Virus record (IMG/VR): IMGVR_UViG_3300036466_000516
Span: 1-25,848 of that record
Length of the DNA: 25,848 nucleotides
Reading direction: 5' to 3' (one strand)
DNA from: a virus
Numbering within the stretch: the first letter of the stretch is position 1; the number at the start of each line of letters is the position of its first letter. Positions 2,923-10,810 of this stretch are shown piece by piece. A program made the position numbers and the translations under genes. The notes beneath the pieces are model-generated. The model worked only from the letters and a program-made list of their open reading frames with translations. It ran no database searches and had not been told where the DNA came from.

Positions 2923-3663
2923 ATGACCGCGAGTTCATTGCCGGATTGCGTCCGGTTTCACGATACAGAATTATCAATTATTGACCGTGATGGTCGGCCT
3001 TGGGTGACGAGCGCCGATTTGGCGCGGGCGCTTGGCTATGCCAATGCTAACAAGGTAACGGTTCTTTATAATCGCCTAAAAGACGAGTTTTCCGACGATA
3101 TGACCCTCTTACTCAAATTGAGTACGAGGGGGCAGGTCGCGCCAACCAACCACCGGGTATTCTCTCCGCGCGGGTGTAGAACAATAGCGTTTTTTGCCCG
3201 CACCGCCCGCGCCAAGGCATTTCGCCGCTGGGTGCTCGATGTGCTGGAAGGGCTGGAAAAGCCCGCGCCAGCCCCGCACCCCGATGCGGTAAGCAGCTTT
3301 CATTTTTCCAATGATCAGATTGCGGCCTTGCGGGCCGATATAGTGCGTGATGTGACACGGGATTTGGCGGCAAGGATGCCGTCGCCGGGGGTGGATATGC
3401 CGCGCCTGAATGCGGGCCATGCCCTGTTTGCCATCGCAGGCAAGCGGGTGATTGTTGATACCCGTGATGGCAATCCGGCGCGGGGCGACCGGGCGGTTGT
3501 GGTGCGCTGCGAGGGCGGGGGCCGTGGCCCCGAACTGGTCACGATCCTTGGCGATCCGCCGGTGCCGACATGGTTTGACCGCTGCAAGATTTATGATTCA
3601 GGCGTGCGTTATCACATTCCGGTCGGGGTGGTGATTGGCCGTGTTATTTGGGAGGGTGTGTGA
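2923..3663 (+). CDS. BRO-N domain antirepressor
   Basis: A 246-residue protein. The N-terminal BRO-N domain (about 8-110) reads VRFHDTELSIIDRDGRPWVT, SADLARALGYANANKVTVLY, then FSPRGCRTIAFFARTARAKAFRRWVLDVLEG. BRO-N proteins in phages act as DNA-binding antirepressors or regulators. The middle (about 115-160) looks like a linker. The C-terminal ~85 residues are unusual: beta-rich, with NPARGDRAVVVRCEGG and VGVVIGRVIWEGV, faintly like the C-terminal fold of S24/LexA-type repressors, though I see no clear Ser-Lys dyad. The start is the ATG at 2923 with GAGGG seven bases upstream, in the site targeted by the C4 RNA. Its stop overlaps the next start (TGATG), so it also leads the replication operon. 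Confidence 0.85.
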   Translation: MTASSLPDCVRFHDTELSIIDRDGRPWVTSADLARALGYANANKVTVLYNRLKDEFSDDMTLLLKLSTRGQVAPTNHRVFSPRGCRTIAFFARTARAKAFRRWVLDVLEGLEKPAPAPHPDAVSSFHFSNDQIAALRADIVRDVTRDLAARMPSPGVDMPRLNAGHALFAIAGKRVIVDTRDGNPARGDRAVVVRCEGGGRGPELVTILGDPPVPTWFDRCKIYDSGVRYHIPVGVVIGRVIWEGV

Positions 3664-3917
3664 TGACCGAGGAGCAGATTGCGGTTTTGACGGTGCTGGA
3701 TGCCGTTGAGAGCGAATTTATTGAGCATTCGTGCATCAAGGCCGAACGCATTGGTATGGAAAAAGGCCGGTTTTTGGCAGTTTGTCGCAAGTTGCGCGAT
3801 ATGGGCTATGCGGAATTACTACCGCTGTTTGACCTTGGGGATGGTGCGGTATGCGGCAGCGCCTATGCCCGCACCAGAAAGGGCGAAACATTGGTGTTTT
3901 TGGCGGGTGCCGCATGA
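3663..3917 (+). CDS. Small unknown protein at the head of the replication operon
   Basis: An 84-residue protein starting at the ATG at 3663, overlapping the upstream TGA, with GGGAGGG at 3650-3656. It is largely helical with a possible winged-helix feel: MTEEQIAVLTVLDAVESEFI, then ERIGMEKGRFLAVCRKLRDMGYAELLP, then ARTRKGETLVFLAG. This resembles a small MarR-like or primase-accessory wing domain, but I cannot name a family. It ends in ATGA, coupling it to the primase gene, so a role in replication control is possible. Inferred from position only. Confidence 0.7.
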   Translation: MTEEQIAVLTVLDAVESEFIEHSCIKAERIGMEKGRFLAVCRKLRDMGYAELLPLFDLGDGAVCGSAYARTRKGETLVFLAGAA

Positions 3918-5080
3918 CGGACATTAAACGTTCATTGGCTGATATGGCGGATGCTATCAAGGGGCAATACCGGCCCAGCGAGGTTGTGGGGCAGTTTGTG
4001 AAGCTGCGCCGGGCCGGGGTGGAAATGGAAGGGCTTTGCCCGTTTCACGGCGAGAAATCGCCCAGTTTCAAGGTGAATGATCGCAAGGGGGTTATTCATT
4101 GTTTTGGCTGTGGCTGGCATGGTGACGTGATTGCGTTTTATGCCGAAATACGCGGGATAGGTGCCAGCGAGGCGATACGCGCCCTGGCGTCGGATGCGGG
4201 CATTGATGACCCGGTGGCCCGCGAGCGGCTGGCGCAAAAGGCGCGGCGTGATGCCGCCCGGCGTGAGGCCGACCTTGCGGCGCAAAAGCAAACCGAGGCG
4301 GGCCGGTTAATGGCGATTTGGCAAAGCCGGTTGCCGGTTTTGGGGTCGCCTGTGGCGGATTACCTGGCGTCGCGCAAGGTGTTGCCCGATGTGGTGCCGC
4401 CGACATTGGGCTATTTGCCAGACCACCCGTATTGGAACCGGCCCGACAAGGGGCGCAGGGCGGTTTTATGCGGGCGGTTCCCCGTCATGGTGGCGATTAT
4501 GTTAATGCCCGACCGGCGCTTTGCCGGGTTGCATATGACCTATATCGCGCCCGACGGCAGCGGCAAGGCGCAACCGGTTTGCCCGGTGACGGGCGAGGTT
4601 TTGGGGGCGAAAAAGGTGCGGTCGGCCTTGCCGGACCTTTCGGGGGCCGGGATATGGTTAACGCCGATCCGGGCGCATATGGCGGTTTCAGAGGGGATTG
4701 AAAACGGTTTGACATGGATGCTGCGCCGTCCGGATTGGGGCATTGCAGCGGCCTATAGCCTTGATAATCTGGCCGGGGCCGGGCTGGGTGAGGGGCGCAA
4801 ACGCAGCGATGACCCGAAAAAACGCTTGCCCAGCAAGGCCCCGCGCATGGCCCGGCCCGGTTTTCGTCCGCCTTATGGGGATGATGAATATTCGCGCTGG
4901 AAAACCGTGCAGCATGTGCAGCGGGTGACGGTACTGGCCGATAATGACAGCAAGGACCCGATTGCGGCTGCGTGCCTGTTTGAACGGGCGCGGCGAAAAT
5001 TTCAGAATATTGGCTATGAAAGCCGGGTGTTAATGCCCCCGGCGGGAATGGATTTTAACGATATGGTCCGGGGGAAGTGA
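3914..5080 (+). CDS. DNA primase with CHC2 zinc finger and TOPRIM domain
   Basis: A 388-residue primase-like protein expected to make RNA primers for phage DNA replication. The CHC2 zinc-binding domain has C42, H45, C63 and C66 (CPFH and CFGC), with the usual LCPFHGEKSPSF and GCGWHGDVIAFY context. A charged Ala/Arg-rich linker (about 97-135) leads to a TOPRIM-like domain with AVSEGIENGLTW near 256-267 and VTVLADNDSKD near 338-348, the acidic metal-binding motifs. The ATG at 3914 overlaps the previous stop, and the stop overlaps the helicase start. It is shorter than cellular DnaG and lacks an obvious DnaB-binding domain, as in phage and plasmid primases of the Toprim_3 type. Confidence 0.9.
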   Translation: MTDIKRSLADMADAIKGQYRPSEVVGQFVKLRRAGVEMEGLCPFHGEKSPSFKVNDRKGVIHCFGCGWHGDVIAFYAEIRGIGASEAIRALASDAGIDDPVARERLAQKARRDAARREADLAAQKQTEAGRLMAIWQSRLPVLGSPVADYLASRKVLPDVVPPTLGYLPDHPYWNRPDKGRRAVLCGRFPVMVAIMLMPDRRFAGLHMTYIAPDGSGKAQPVCPVTGEVLGAKKVRSALPDLSGAGIWLTPIRAHMAVSEGIENGLTWMLRRPDWGIAAAYSLDNLAGAGLGEGRKRSDDPKKRLPSKAPRMARPGFRPPYGDDEYSRWKTVQHVQRVTVLADNDSKDPIAAACLFERARRKFQNIGYESRVLMPPAGMDFNDMVRGK

Positions 5081-6846
5081 TGGCAGTGGAATATCAGCAA
5101 GCGGCCAACGAGAATGTTGATTTTGACCGGATCGACGAAGATAACCCGTTTCAGGATGCGGCAGACGGGGCCACGGCCCTGCCAGATGCCGGACCGTGCC
5201 CGGTGCAGTGCCTGGGGCATAATGATGGCCGGTTTTATTTTGTAACGCCCAGCGGCCAGTTGCGCGACCTTGCGGCCAAAAGCCTTGGCAACCGGCAGGA
5301 AATTACCGCGCTTTTTGAAACCAAACTTGGCTGGGCCGGGGCGGCTTTTCCCAAATATGACAAGGAAGAACGTTATGTTGGGCCAAATTACCCGATGGTG
5401 GGACAATGGTTTATGGGGGAATGTGCGATAAAGGGCATATTCTCGCCCGACAAGGTGCGCGGGCTTGGCGTTTGGAAGGATATTCGCGGCGGGCTGATTG
5501 TGCATTGTGGCGACCGGCTGGTTTTATCGTCTGGCCATAAGGTGGAAAAGGCGGGGCGCAAGCTGGATGACGGGTGGGTTTACCCGGCACAGCCGCCTTT
5601 GCCCGCGATGATGCGCCCGGCCCTGAATGACCCGGCGCGGATTGGCGATATGCGGATGGTGTATGACCATTTGAAATCGTGGAATTTTCTGTCGCCTGCT
5701 GGGGCGCATATCTGCCTTGGGATTATGGGCTTGATTTGTATTTGCGGGGCCTTGCAGCGGCGGCCTACGCTTTGGCTGATCGGCGATGCCGGGGTTGGCA
5801 AAACCGAGTTGTTAACGTTGTTAACAGAGCCGGTGGGCGGGCTGGACAACACGTTGCGGTCGTCTGATGCCAGTGCGGCCTTTGTGCGCGCCGCATTGCA
5901 GGGGGCGGCAAGGCCGGTGTTTCTGGATGAAATGGAACCGGGGCCACGGGCCGCTGCGGCGATGGAACTGGCCCGGCTGGGATTTTCAAATGATCAGGCC
6001 GGGGTAGGGCGCGCCAGTGCTGATCAGAAAGCGATATTGCAGCGGATTACCGCGCAGTTTGTGTTTGGCAGTATTTTGCACCCTGAACCAAAACCACAGG
6101 ACCAGTCGCGCATTCATTTTATGGAACTGGGGCCGCTTAGTGCCGATGCGGCAGCGGTTGAAACCTTTAACACCCGCGCCCGCATGATTAAGGAAATCGG
6201 CCCGAAAATTTGGGCGCGGATGATTTTGGGGTATCCGCGTTTTTTGGAAAATCTGTTGGTTTATCAGGGTGTTTTGGGGGCTTCGGCCTATTCGCGCCGG
6301 TTAACCGACAAGTTTGCGCCGGTGTTGGCGGCGGCGGAAACGTTGTTGGATGACGTTGTGATCAATGCCGGTACGGCAGCGGACCAGATTAGCGTTTGGG
6401 GCCTTGAAGAACCCGAACAGAACGATACCGAGGCCGACGAATGCCTTAACCATCTTATGTCCTGTCAGGTGGATACCTGGCGCGGCGGGGACCGGTTAAC
6501 GGTGGGGCAGTTGCTTACCAAGGTATTGGACCTTGGTGCGCGGGGTGACGGGGATTCGGCACGGCTGAATGAGGAAACCTTGCCGGGGTATGGCCTTAAA
6601 CTTGGCCCTGCCAACCGGGGCACACAGCGCGGGTTTGAATATTTGATGGTGGCCAACAAGCACCAGTCCTTAACCCGGCTGTTTCGTGAAACGCGCTGGC
6701 AAGGCGGGGTTCATCGGCAGGCATTGGCGCGTTTGGAGGGGGCTGTTGCCGCCGGGCCATTGCGGTTAGGCGGGGCGCTTACCCGGTGCATTAAAATCCC
6801 GCTTGCCATTATTGCCAAACCCGATAACAATGGTGATGTCCTATGA
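5080..6846 (+). CDS. Phage replication helicase-like P-loop ATPase
   Basis: A 588-residue ATPase immediately downstream of the primase and coupled to it (TGATG). A GTG at 5077 is a possible earlier start. Walker A is GDAGVGKTE at about 234-242 and Walker B is PVFLDEME at about 279-286. An Asn/Gln-rich segment (FVFGSILHPEPKPQDQSRI) follows, perhaps sensor 1. The N-terminal ~200 residues, with WFMGECAIKGIF and GLIVHCGDRLVL, look like an unidentified substrate- or DNA-binding domain. The architecture suits the D5/SF3-like or VirE-like helicases that phages pair with CHC2 primases. The exact superfamily is uncertain. It probably loads at the GTTAC-box origin just downstream. Confidence 0.8.
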   Translation: MAVEYQQAANENVDFDRIDEDNPFQDAADGATALPDAGPCPVQCLGHNDGRFYFVTPSGQLRDLAAKSLGNRQEITALFETKLGWAGAAFPKYDKEERYVGPNYPMVGQWFMGECAIKGIFSPDKVRGLGVWKDIRGGLIVHCGDRLVLSSGHKVEKAGRKLDDGWVYPAQPPLPAMMRPALNDPARIGDMRMVYDHLKSWNFLSPAGAHICLGIMGLICICGALQRRPTLWLIGDAGVGKTELLTLLTEPVGGLDNTLRSSDASAAFVRAALQGAARPVFLDEMEPGPRAAAAMELARLGFSNDQAGVGRASADQKAILQRITAQFVFGSILHPEPKPQDQSRIHFMELGPLSADAAAVETFNTRARMIKEIGPKIWARMILGYPRFLENLLVYQGVLGASAYSRRLTDKFAPVLAAAETLLDDVVINAGTAADQISVWGLEEPEQNDTEADECLNHLMSCQVDTWRGGDRLTVGQLLTKVLDLGARGDGDSARLNEETLPGYGLKLGPANRGTQRGFEYLMVANKHQSLTRLFRETRWQGGVHRQALARLEGAVAAGPLRLGGALTRCIKIPLAIIAKPDNNGDVL

Positions 6847-7187
6847 CCTATACCACCCCCGCACCCCGTGATTTAAAGGGTGCTTCGCAGATTTTGAAGC
6901 GGGTTCCGGTGTGGGTTTTGCGGCAGATGTTACAGCCCGGAATGGCGTTTGTAACACCCGCGTTACGGATAACCCCTTATAAAATAACCATTGTTACAAT
7001 GTTACGCCTGTTACAGGAAAACATCCCCCCATGTGTGCGCGTGCGCGCATATGTATATAAACTATGTAACAACTGTAACATTGTAACTTTATATATAAAT
7101 CAATCAGTTAAACGTTACGCAGGTGTTACACTTGCAAAATGGGGTGTAACAGCTGGTTTTGGTCAGTCCGTACGTGGAGGGTTTTGA
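6843..7187 (+). CDS. Unknown 114-residue ORF that contains the candidate origin
   Basis: The ATG at 6843 overlaps the helicase stop (ATGA) and the TGA at 7185-7187 ends one base before the next start, so it fits the operon tightly. The first ~40 residues (TTPAPRDLKGASQILKRVPV, then WVLRQMLQPG) look like normal coding sequence. From about residue 35 the composition becomes Thr/Val/Cys-rich because the DNA is the GTTAC repeat array. I recognise no domain. Either a short protein whose gene hosts the origin (as lambda ori lies in gene O), or a frame kept open by chance across a non-coding origin. Confidence 0.42.
   Translation: MTYTTPAPRDLKGASQILKRVPVWVLRQMLQPGMAFVTPALRITPYKITIVTMLRLLQENIPPCVRVRAYVYKLCNNCNIVTLYINQSVKRYAGVTLAKWGVTAGFGQSVRGGF
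6929..7150. repeat. Candidate phage replication origin: symmetric array of twelve GTTAC boxes
   Basis: GTTAC occurs at 6929, 6962, 6993, 7001, 7010, 7114 and 7125, and its complement GTAAC at 6951, 7066, 7075, 7083 and 7146. Pairs 6951/7125, 6962/7114, 6993/7083, 7001/7075 and 7010/7066 share exactly the same midpoint, 7040. The outermost pair (6929/7146) is off by half a base. Inner triplets have spacings of 8 and 9 bases, mirrored on the other side. AT-rich gaps of 26 bases (6967-6992 and 7088-7113) separate inner and outer boxes. The array sits directly after primase and helicase genes, as expected for an iteron-type origin. An operator cluster is the alternative. Confidence 0.72.
7030..7059. 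other. 30-nt alternating purine-pyrimidine tract at the centre of the array
   Basis: Bases 7030-7059 alternate pyrimidine and purine without a break. The first part is GC-rich (TGTGCGCGTGCGCGC) and the second AT-rich (ATATGTATATA). Such tracts can adopt Z-DNA under negative supercoiling and melt easily at the AT end. It covers the symmetry centre of the GTTAC array, so a role in origin opening or spacing is plausible. Inference only. Confidence 0.6.
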
Positions 7188-9045: not shown

Positions 9046-10810
9046 ACGACGCCGCAATATCAAGCGGGCCGAACTGGTGCGCCGGTTCAAGGGCAACCCG
9101 GCGGTGCTTTATCATGTCAGCACATGGTATGCTCTATCCGTTATCGAGGGCAAAATACCCGCCTGCAAGCTGCGCATTGCAGCCTGCCAGCGCCAGATCA
9201 ATGATCTGATTGATGGGCCAAAGCGCGGGCTGATGTTTTCGATGCCCCGCGCCGACCATGTGATGGCATTTTTCCCGCTGTTTTTGCGCCATTCCAAGGG
9301 GGAATGGGGCAACCACCGGTTCGAGTTGTCGGATTGGCAAAAGTTTTGCCTGTCGGTTCTGTTTGGCTGGCTGGTGGCGGAAACCGGGCTGCGCCGGTTT
9401 ATTTATGCCTATTTCGAGGTGCCGCGCAAAAACGGAAAATCAACATTCCTGTCGGGTGTTGGCCTGTACATGTTTGTGATGGATCAGGAGCCGGGTGCCG
9501 AGGTTTACACCGCCGCAACCAAGTCGGAACAGGCGAAAATCATCTTTTCTGAAGCGCAGAATATGGTGCGCAAAAGCCCGAAACTGCGCAAACACATCAT
9601 GTCGATGTCGCGGCATTTGGAACATCCGCGTTCGGCGTCGATTTTCAAATATATTTCGGCAGATGCCAAAACGCAGGACGGGTTAAACAGCCATTGCAAC
9701 CTGGTTGACGAGGTTCATGCGCACAAGGATCGCAGCCTGATCGAAGTGCTGGAAACCGGCATGGGGGCGCGGCGTCAACCTTTGCACATCGAAATCACCA
9801 CAGCGGGAACTGACCCCTATTCGGTGTGTCGGGAACATCATGATTATTCAGTCAAGGTGATGACCGGTGTTTTTGATGACGACACGTGGTTTGGATTTAT
9901 CTGTTCGGTCGATAAGGGCGATGATCCGTTTGCTGAATTAAGCTGGCGCAAGGCCAACCCGAACTGGGGTGTGTCGGTGCGCGCCGATAACTTTGAAAAG
10001 ATCGTGGCCAAGGCGCGAAATAATCCGGCATCGCTGGCATCGTTCAAGCGGTTGCGCCTGAATGTTTGGGGGCAAACGTCGGAAATCTGGCTGGATATTT
10101 CCCAGTGGGATAAATGCCAGATCGTATTTGACCGCGAAAGCCTGCGCGGCAAGCGGTGCTATATCGGCATGGATATGTCGTCGGTTAGCGATATTACGGC
10201 GGTTGTGTTGGTGTTTCCGCCCGAATTTGAGGGTGAGAAAACACGGATATTGCCGTTTTTCTGGGTGCCCGAGGCGACGATTGAAAAGCGGGTGGAAGAT
10301 CGCGCCGTTCCCTATGACCAATGGGAAGAAATGGGGCTTATTCGCCGTACCGAGGGCGGTGCAACGGATTATGATGCGATTGAAACCTTTATTCTGGGCG
10401 ACGATGACGCAGGGATTGAAGGGCTGCGGGATGAATTTGAGATTGTCGAAATCGCCTATGACCGGATGTTTGCCGGGCAGATTATTCAGCACCTTGAAAC
10501 ACAGGGTTTGACCTGTGTTTCGATGGGGCAAGGCATGTATGGCATGGCGGCCCCCTGCCGGGAACTGGAACAGTTGGTGATTAATGGGAAAATTGCCCAT
10601 GACGGCAACCCGGTGATGACCTGGATGATTTCAAATACTGCGGTCAAAACCGACGATCACGACAACAAAAAACCGATCAAGCCCGATAGCCGCAAGGATA
10701 TGCGCAAAATCGACGGTGTGGTTGCCATGTTGATGGCGCTGGGCCGGATTATTTCAGCCGAGTCCGATGAAGAAGTATCGGCGGAATCAATATTTGGTGG
10801 TGTTATATGA
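9008..10810 (+). CDS. Terminase large subunit (HK97-like packaging ATPase/nuclease)
   Basis: A 600-residue motor that pumps DNA into the prohead and cuts it. The ATPase domain has a Walker A-like motif, VPRKNGKST at about 138-146, AAATKSEQAKIIFSEAQ-type sequence after it, and Walker B NLVDEVHAH at about 231-239 with the catalytic Glu. The nuclease domain has YIGMDMSSVSD with its first metal-binding Asp near 389, VEIAYDRM near 481-488, and a final KIDGVVAMLMALGRI near 568. I chose the ATG at 9008; an upstream in-frame start would add basic residues not needed by the family. The stop overlaps the portal start (ATGA). It looks complete. Confidence 0.93.
   Translation: MTLTISGKAGGRKRRRNIKRAELVRRFKGNPAVLYHVSTWYALSVIEGKIPACKLRIAACQRQINDLIDGPKRGLMFSMPRADHVMAFFPLFLRHSKGEWGNHRFELSDWQKFCLSVLFGWLVAETGLRRFIYAYFEVPRKNGKSTFLSGVGLYMFVMDQEPGAEVYTAATKSEQAKIIFSEAQNMVRKSPKLRKHIMSMSRHLEHPRSASIFKYISADAKTQDGLNSHCNLVDEVHAHKDRSLIEVLETGMGARRQPLHIEITTAGTDPYSVCREHHDYSVKVMTGVFDDDTWFGFICSVDKGDDPFAELSWRKANPNWGVSVRADNFEKIVAKARNNPASLASFKRLRLNVWGQTSEIWLDISQWDKCQIVFDRESLRGKRCYIGMDMSSVSDITAVVLVFPPEFEGEKTRILPFFWVPEATIEKRVEDRAVPYDQWEEMGLIRRTEGGATDYDAIETFILGDDDAGIEGLRDEFEIVEIAYDRMFAGQIIQHLETQGLTCVSMGQGMYGMAAPCRELEQLVINGKIAHDGNPVMTWMISNTAVKTDDHDNKKPIKPDSRKDMRKIDGVVAMLMALGRIISAESDEEVSAESIFGGVI

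Follow-up and report, generated by a model that had tools for sequence, protein, structure and literature searches.

SV40 T-antigen and papillomavirus E1 form double hexamers. In both, short boxes within the origin are recognized by the virus's own hexameric helicase, a parallel drawn in PMC7581432. According to the same account, SaPI Rep uses its C-terminal domain to bind the origin lying directly downstream of its gene, apparently as two hexamers (PMC7581432). For the SCCmec protein Cch2, the binding site is a 23-bp stretch just past the end of its gene that contains three 5-nt AAGTG iterons, and the C-terminal domain alone also binds (PMC7581432). In Streptococcus phage Sfi21, a 302-bp element works as an origin and, in many copies, serves as a decoy that protects hosts from phages (PMC6356513).

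We analyzed a 25,848-nt IMG/VR virus record (IMGVR_UViG_3300036466_000516, positions 1 to 25,848), referred to here in its entirety as the window. Positions 6929-7150 contain twelve GTWAC boxes (GTTAC or GTAAC) within 222 nt, mirror-symmetric about 7040, and the first box lies 82 nt past the stop of a helicase gene (6846). The left half begins with an outermost GTTAC box at 6929-6933 (plus strand), 64 nt outside the inner triad, followed by a box of opposite orientation at 6951-6955 (minus, 42 nt outside) and one at 6962-6966 (plus, 31 nt outside). The left inner triad (6993-7014, plus) has GTTAC at 6993, 7001 and 7010, that is, at offsets 0/8/17. After a central spacer of 51 nt with 53% A+T (7015-7065), which we propose as the unwinding region, the right inner triad (7066-7087, minus) has GTAAC at 7066, 7075 and 7083. 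The outer right boxes are at 7114-7118 (plus), 7125-7129 (plus) and 7146-7150 (minus), lying 31, 42 and 63 nt outside the triad, respectively. The inner arms form a 23-nt inverted repeat with 87% identity and the outer arms a 24-nt inverted repeat with 83%.

A first-pass annotation of this DNA had listed these twelve boxes, and every position was right, with GTTAC or GTAAC at each. Its account of the symmetry was also borne out: the first- and last-base sums of the mirrored pairs are 14080 in five pairs (midpoint 7040) and 14079 in the outermost (7039.5), half a base off. The same is true of its two 26-nt AT-rich flanking gaps (A+T 69% and 85%) and of its view that the array is far from chance, since only 0.19 GTWAC is expected per 222 nt from the other 22 occurrences in the window, giving a Poisson probability of at least 12 boxes of ~4e-18 for one fixed 222-nt window. 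The outer blocks 6951-6966 and 7114-7129 differ by the two mismatches it had described, over 16 positions rather than the 17 it gave. It had further pointed to pair 6962/7114 as breaking the inversion; the break exists, and comparison with two related loci (L003 and L022) assigns it to the box at 6962, because 31 nt outside the inner triad both carry a box oriented opposite to it, so that the window departs from its family there. An open reading frame spanning the array (6843-7187) was rejected as a gene, as it is not conserved and the same region of L003 reaches a stop within ~11 codons.

Two replication genes precede the array on the plus strand. The upstream one (3914-5080) encodes a DnaG-type primase with a CHC2 zinc ribbon and a Toprim domain (Pfam Zn_ribbon_DnaG 5.6e-26, Toprim_3 1.5e-10; PHROG 510, DNA primase), and the first in-frame ATG of its open reading frame is at 3851. 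The second (5077-6846) encodes a 589-aa AAA+ helicase resembling Cch and SaPI Rep, which we propose as the initiator on the basis of an AlphaFold2 model (pLDDT 79) and its fold matches in the PDB. The best match was SCCmec Cch (5dgk, Z 16.2 over 426 residues), followed by the SaPI5 primase-helicase (7ola, Z 14.3) and SaPIbov1 Rep (8tch, Z 11.7); other high-scoring entries were MCM and poxvirus D5/E5 helicases. No Pfam family fitted the helicase, which matched PHROG 21086 (unknown function), and neither Pfam nor PHROG gave a D5/P4 family match. Pfam DUF927, found in SaPIbov1 Rep and Cch, matched neither this helicase nor its homologues; the relation rests on fold and not on a family model. The C-terminal part (about residues 440-589; 6394-6843, plus) is the candidate box-reading domain. 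No other part is as poorly conserved among Thalassospira homologues (51-60%, versus 80-86% in the ATPase core), and its fold matches were weak: Z 4.1 to residues 449-557 of SaPIbov1 Rep, 4.3 to an oriT-binding relaxosome accessory protein, and about 4 to winged-helix DNA binders. Foldseek with this domain returned no significant match. Upstream of the replication genes, the window also carries two antirepressor-type genes with AntA and Bro-N domains (971-1816 and 2923-3663). Cumulative GC skew climbed across the whole window without a turning point at which an origin could be placed.

The helicase then led to close relatives of the locus. Thalassospira mesophila carries a near-identical prophage (L095) with 99% helicase identity, and four viral contigs encode the helicase, one at 99% identity (L002) and three at ~70% (L003-L005). 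All four contigs keep all twelve boxes at distances that are the same to within 1 nt. The first-pass annotation had named conservation of the box positions and of their symmetry about the centre in homologous prophages beforehand as a test of its origin proposal, and both were kept. In L003-L005, the middle base is swapped in 11 of the 12 boxes, so that the inner left boxes read GTAAC and the inner right boxes GTTAC, and likewise outward; the only unswapped box corresponds to the window's 6962, the box that breaks the mirror rule in the window. When L003 is read as GTAAC, each side has three inner boxes facing one way, two outer boxes reversed and an outermost box like the inner ones, and except at 6962 the window shows the same plan with GTTAC, indicating that the orientation plan is kept while the spelling changes as a set. 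Another such prophage, L022, has T-type inner triads and a centre nearly identical to that of L004.

Two explanations of the swap were discarded. Inversion of the segment fails because an inverted symmetric structure gives back the same letters. A flipped bound protein does not suffice as the sole cause, since the letter changes without any change in the spacing (8 outside and 9 inside), in the flanking T or in how the outer boxes are oriented relative to the rest. About 50 helicase positions separate the T and A groups and none could be singled out as responsible for the switch; nor could C-terminal residues be linked to it, as the window and L022, both with T boxes, differ from each other as much as from L003.

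We searched for the inner layout elsewhere with a pattern of three GTWAC boxes at 0/8/17, a centre of 36-66 nt and the mirrored triad. In IMG/VR, 51 stretches matched with GTTAC as the first box and 14 with GTAAC, three of them common to both. About 20 further IMG/VR arrays have G, C or mixed middle bases, mostly GTGAC...GTCAC, and no CCC|GGG class was seen among those with G or C in the first box. Equal-information controls gave no matches, either with GAWTC at the same spacing or with GTTAC and the spacing order swapped. Overall, the inner layout was found in about 80 viral contigs, and tblastx of the sequences around the 86 arrays compared left 17 contexts without links between them. GTTAC repeats that are direct or simple tandem repeats (L089, L091, L093 and L094) were left out, and one candidate (L071, GTG|TTG) that does not fit the mirror rule may be a chance match. 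Among genome contigs, two Sporolactobacillus species carry the T-type pattern next to a P4-type primase gene, and one Bacteroidaceae MAG has it as well; the remaining four matches there are direct repeats. The Bacteroidaceae array (L088:2119-2218) is intergenic with no phage genes in view and may be what is left of an element.

Outer boxes recur near 31, 42-43, 51 and 61-66 nt beyond the inner triads. Their helical phasing gave R 0.62 at 10.5 bp (n = 77), a value to be read with periods of 11 and 11.5 fitting equally and with boxes within a family not being independent. Many helicase-linked families have 6+6 boxes, and other counts are 3+3 in actinophage-like contigs, 3+5 in Sporolactobacillus and 5+5 or 5+6 in freshwater phages, in which the array is separated from the helicase gene by kilobases and closely precedes the terminase genes. 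Three actinophage-like genomes carry two GTGAC-type arrays each, 15-28 kb apart (L074/L076 at contig positions 10747/38396, L075/L077 at 34633/17212 and L081/L082 at 19198/3728). In L068-L070 and L073, two neighboring arrays lie within ~220 nt and have one box in common.

The layout was also sought without assuming any box, using the helicase alone as query against 317 and 385 alphaproteobacterial genomes, which yielded 18 usable loci with 27-49% identity. In the first genome set, a GTNAC array was found only in the near-identical Thalassospira prophage. A scan for inverted triads of any box detected arrays above the best shuffle in 8 of the 18 loci, mostly with other boxes: GTTCC (L109), GTACCC (L111), GGTTTG (L113), AAACC (L114 and L115), GGTTAC (L126), CCTAAC (L127) and GGGACA (L128). 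The independent cases are fewer than eight, since L113-L115 share their box and may be related. One more locus (L129) looks array-like by eye and did not exceed its shuffles. In the remaining 10 of 18, no array of this type was found within 1.5 kb, with some flanks being cut. The same general scan gave no above-shuffle array near the helicase genes of Bordetella PY223, Microcystis Mwe-JY13, Pseudomonas ZRG1 and Acinetobacter Acjo_20. Arrays with other boxes at helicase homologues indicate that the layout persists while the box spelling changes, as a joint change of initiator and origin predicts. Near the helicase gene in L119 (1348-1455) and L121 (3097-3198), we also observed GTCACGTCAC ... 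GTGACGTGAC repeats in 5-nt steps, inverted about a centre of 80-90 nt and possibly representing another box spacing.

Alternating purine-pyrimidine tracts are prone to adopt Z-form or to unwind. The centre of the window's array contains such a run of 30 nt, CATGTGTGCGCGTGCGCGCATATGTATATA (7030-7059), which the first-pass annotation had missed; the runner-up in the window is 11 nt long. The longest alternating run of the locus likewise falls in the centre in L003, L022, L025, L086, L007, L057, L049 and L027, and also in L030, L037, L111, L114, L115, L126, L127 and L129. This was not the case in the centres of L045, L063, L015, L019, L090, L128 and the GTGAC class. The alternating tract may play a part in opening the origin.

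Judged from its sequence, the region 6929-7150 is very probably the replication start of a Thalassospira prophage. The first-pass annotation's proposal of an initiator-binding origin beside primase and helicase genes is supported, with box positions and symmetry kept in homologous prophages. In the mechanism we propose, the upstream gene would supply a self-loading AAA+ helicase akin to Cch and SaPI Rep, whose C-terminal domain would read the 5-nt boxes, and the two inverted inner triads would seat two facing helicase assemblies across the centre. Binding for the remainder of each ring would come from the outer boxes, most of which stand off from the triad by about a whole number of helical turns, with six boxes per half for six subunits per ring; the count suggests that each half takes one hexamer of the helicase. 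The centre, whose many pyrimidine-purine steps unstack easily, would then open, the helicases would load onto the strands and depart in both directions, and the upstream primase would begin synthesis. Box spelling apparently varies to match each phage's own helicase and would change as a set together with its reading domain. We put the probability of this explanation as a whole, from the origin and the helicase-read boxes to the opening centre and the joint change of spelling and reading domain, at about 0.8. Weighing against it are the helicase homologues without such an array, the distance between array and helicase gene in freshwater phages, the varying box counts, the absence of C-terminal residues that could be linked to the T/A switch, the weak C-terminal fold match and the centres that have no alternating tract.

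The positions of some arrays raise the question of whether the boxes instead bind the terminase small subunit around a cut or pac site in the centre. The freshwater-phage array lies a few hundred nt before the terminase genes, and in the window the terminase follows within ~1.5 kb of the array. Against such a packaging site, unrelated arrays adjoin replication genes, with a P4-type primase at L090/L092, an SSB-like gene near L027 and a PrimPol-like protein beside L019 (the latter two assigned by eye), and the Sfi21 element of the same plan works as an origin (PMC6356513). We consider packaging improbable. That the boxes are operators bound by a repressor or a transcription activator of the phage appears slightly more doubtful still. 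Palindrome-like boxes and repeated sites do resemble operators, and the actinophage-like contigs have two arrays per genome, but the window has no divergent promoter, since the neighboring genes point the same way, the 8/9-nt spacing is below that usual for HTH dimers, and searching with the helicase alone brought up the same layout built from other boxes.

Selection on arm pairing itself, as a cruciform or RNA hairpin, is a minor rival and the least probable of these alternatives. Of 69 mirrored pairs of middle bases, 59 are complementary, complementary spacer positions number 60/69 for 3-nt spacers and 57/92 for 4-nt spacers, and some mixed arms still pair (GGT|ACC in L084). Pairing, however, needs no common letter within an arm, yet 111 of 138 same-arm comparisons agree, and the outer boxes follow orientation rules that pairing does not need.

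Phage origins are seldom recognizable from sequence. A fixed geometry of inverted 0/8/17 triads, outer boxes and an alternating centre would locate origins across phages with unrelated genes and would also name the likely initiator. The window and L022, compared with L003-L005, provide natural related pairs whose boxes are one letter apart, which suits the study of joint changes in initiator and origin specificity. More tentatively, and with odds we place well short of even, many unrelated phages may share a geometric origin code, in which 6+6 boxes of fixed position and orientation would seat two hexamers on a Z-prone alternating opener. The spelling, whether T, A or G as middle base or another box altogether, would be an exchangeable key that changes in every box along with the reading domain and gives each phage private replication specificity.

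Finally, we compared the locus with known origins. The first-pass annotation had known of no described origin with such a layout, a view that Sfi21, SaPI Rep and SCCmec Cch2 do not support. Annotated phage origins were reached through a P4-type primase match. In the annotated 302-bp origin of Sfi21 (L102), GTTAC boxes are found at 6580 and 6588, and their GTAAC counterparts at 6664 and 6672. Like the window, it shows inverted GTTAC doublets 8 nt apart, an AT-rich centre and outer boxes, directly after a primase gene. It differs in having doublets with degenerate third boxes, a spacing of 9 outside and 8 inside as opposed to the window's 8 outside and 9 inside, and a primase-helicase of another family (P4 type). 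Inverted GTTAC doublets also directly follow the primase-helicase gene in Bacillus phi105 and Bdellovibrio phi1422, the latter with four extra boxes per side at equal distances, and Acinetobacter Acjo_20 has 14 GTWAC in ~420 nt directly ahead of its primase-helicase gene, where inverted clusters can be made out by eye. Lactobacillus phages A2 and phiadh have an annotated rep_origin after the primase gene with repeats inverted around an AT-rich stretch, as in the window, but the repeats are different and longer. In Arthrobacter phage Reedo (L103:3804-3910), inverted ATGACG boxes lie just before an exonuclease gene, and relatives have GTGAC there. The window does not correspond to an iteron origin of the lambda O type, in which the initiator gene itself contains a small number of direct repeats of ~18-20 bp; its 5-nt boxes form inverted sets outside the helicase gene.

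Among the helicase-initiators, SaPIbov1 and SaPI5 share with the window a helicase-initiator gene followed by a short-iteron origin, a C-terminal reading domain (a candidate in the window) and two proposed hexamers, a likeness drawn from published descriptions of those origins. Unlike SaPI, the window comes from a phage genome in which the DnaG-type primase has a gene of its own upstream, and its helicase has no DUF927 match. Each inner triad resembles the Cch2 site, with three 5-nt boxes in 22 bp; that site is described as a single set of AAGTG iterons, whereas the window has two inverted triads plus six outer boxes, all with a box sequence other than AAGTG. In SV40 T-antigen and E1, the reading domain is N-terminal and the box layout different, and no kinship is claimed. 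A literature search on GTTAC phage origins returned nothing relevant, and we did not find the fixed 0/8/17 geometry in unrelated phages, the 6+6 plan, the concerted change of box spelling or the alternating purine-pyrimidine centre described in the accessible literature. This kind of origin is thus already known from SaPI-Rep/Cch and Sfi21; the window presents an unusually regular version of it, in which the concerted box change and the alternating centre are the freshest points.
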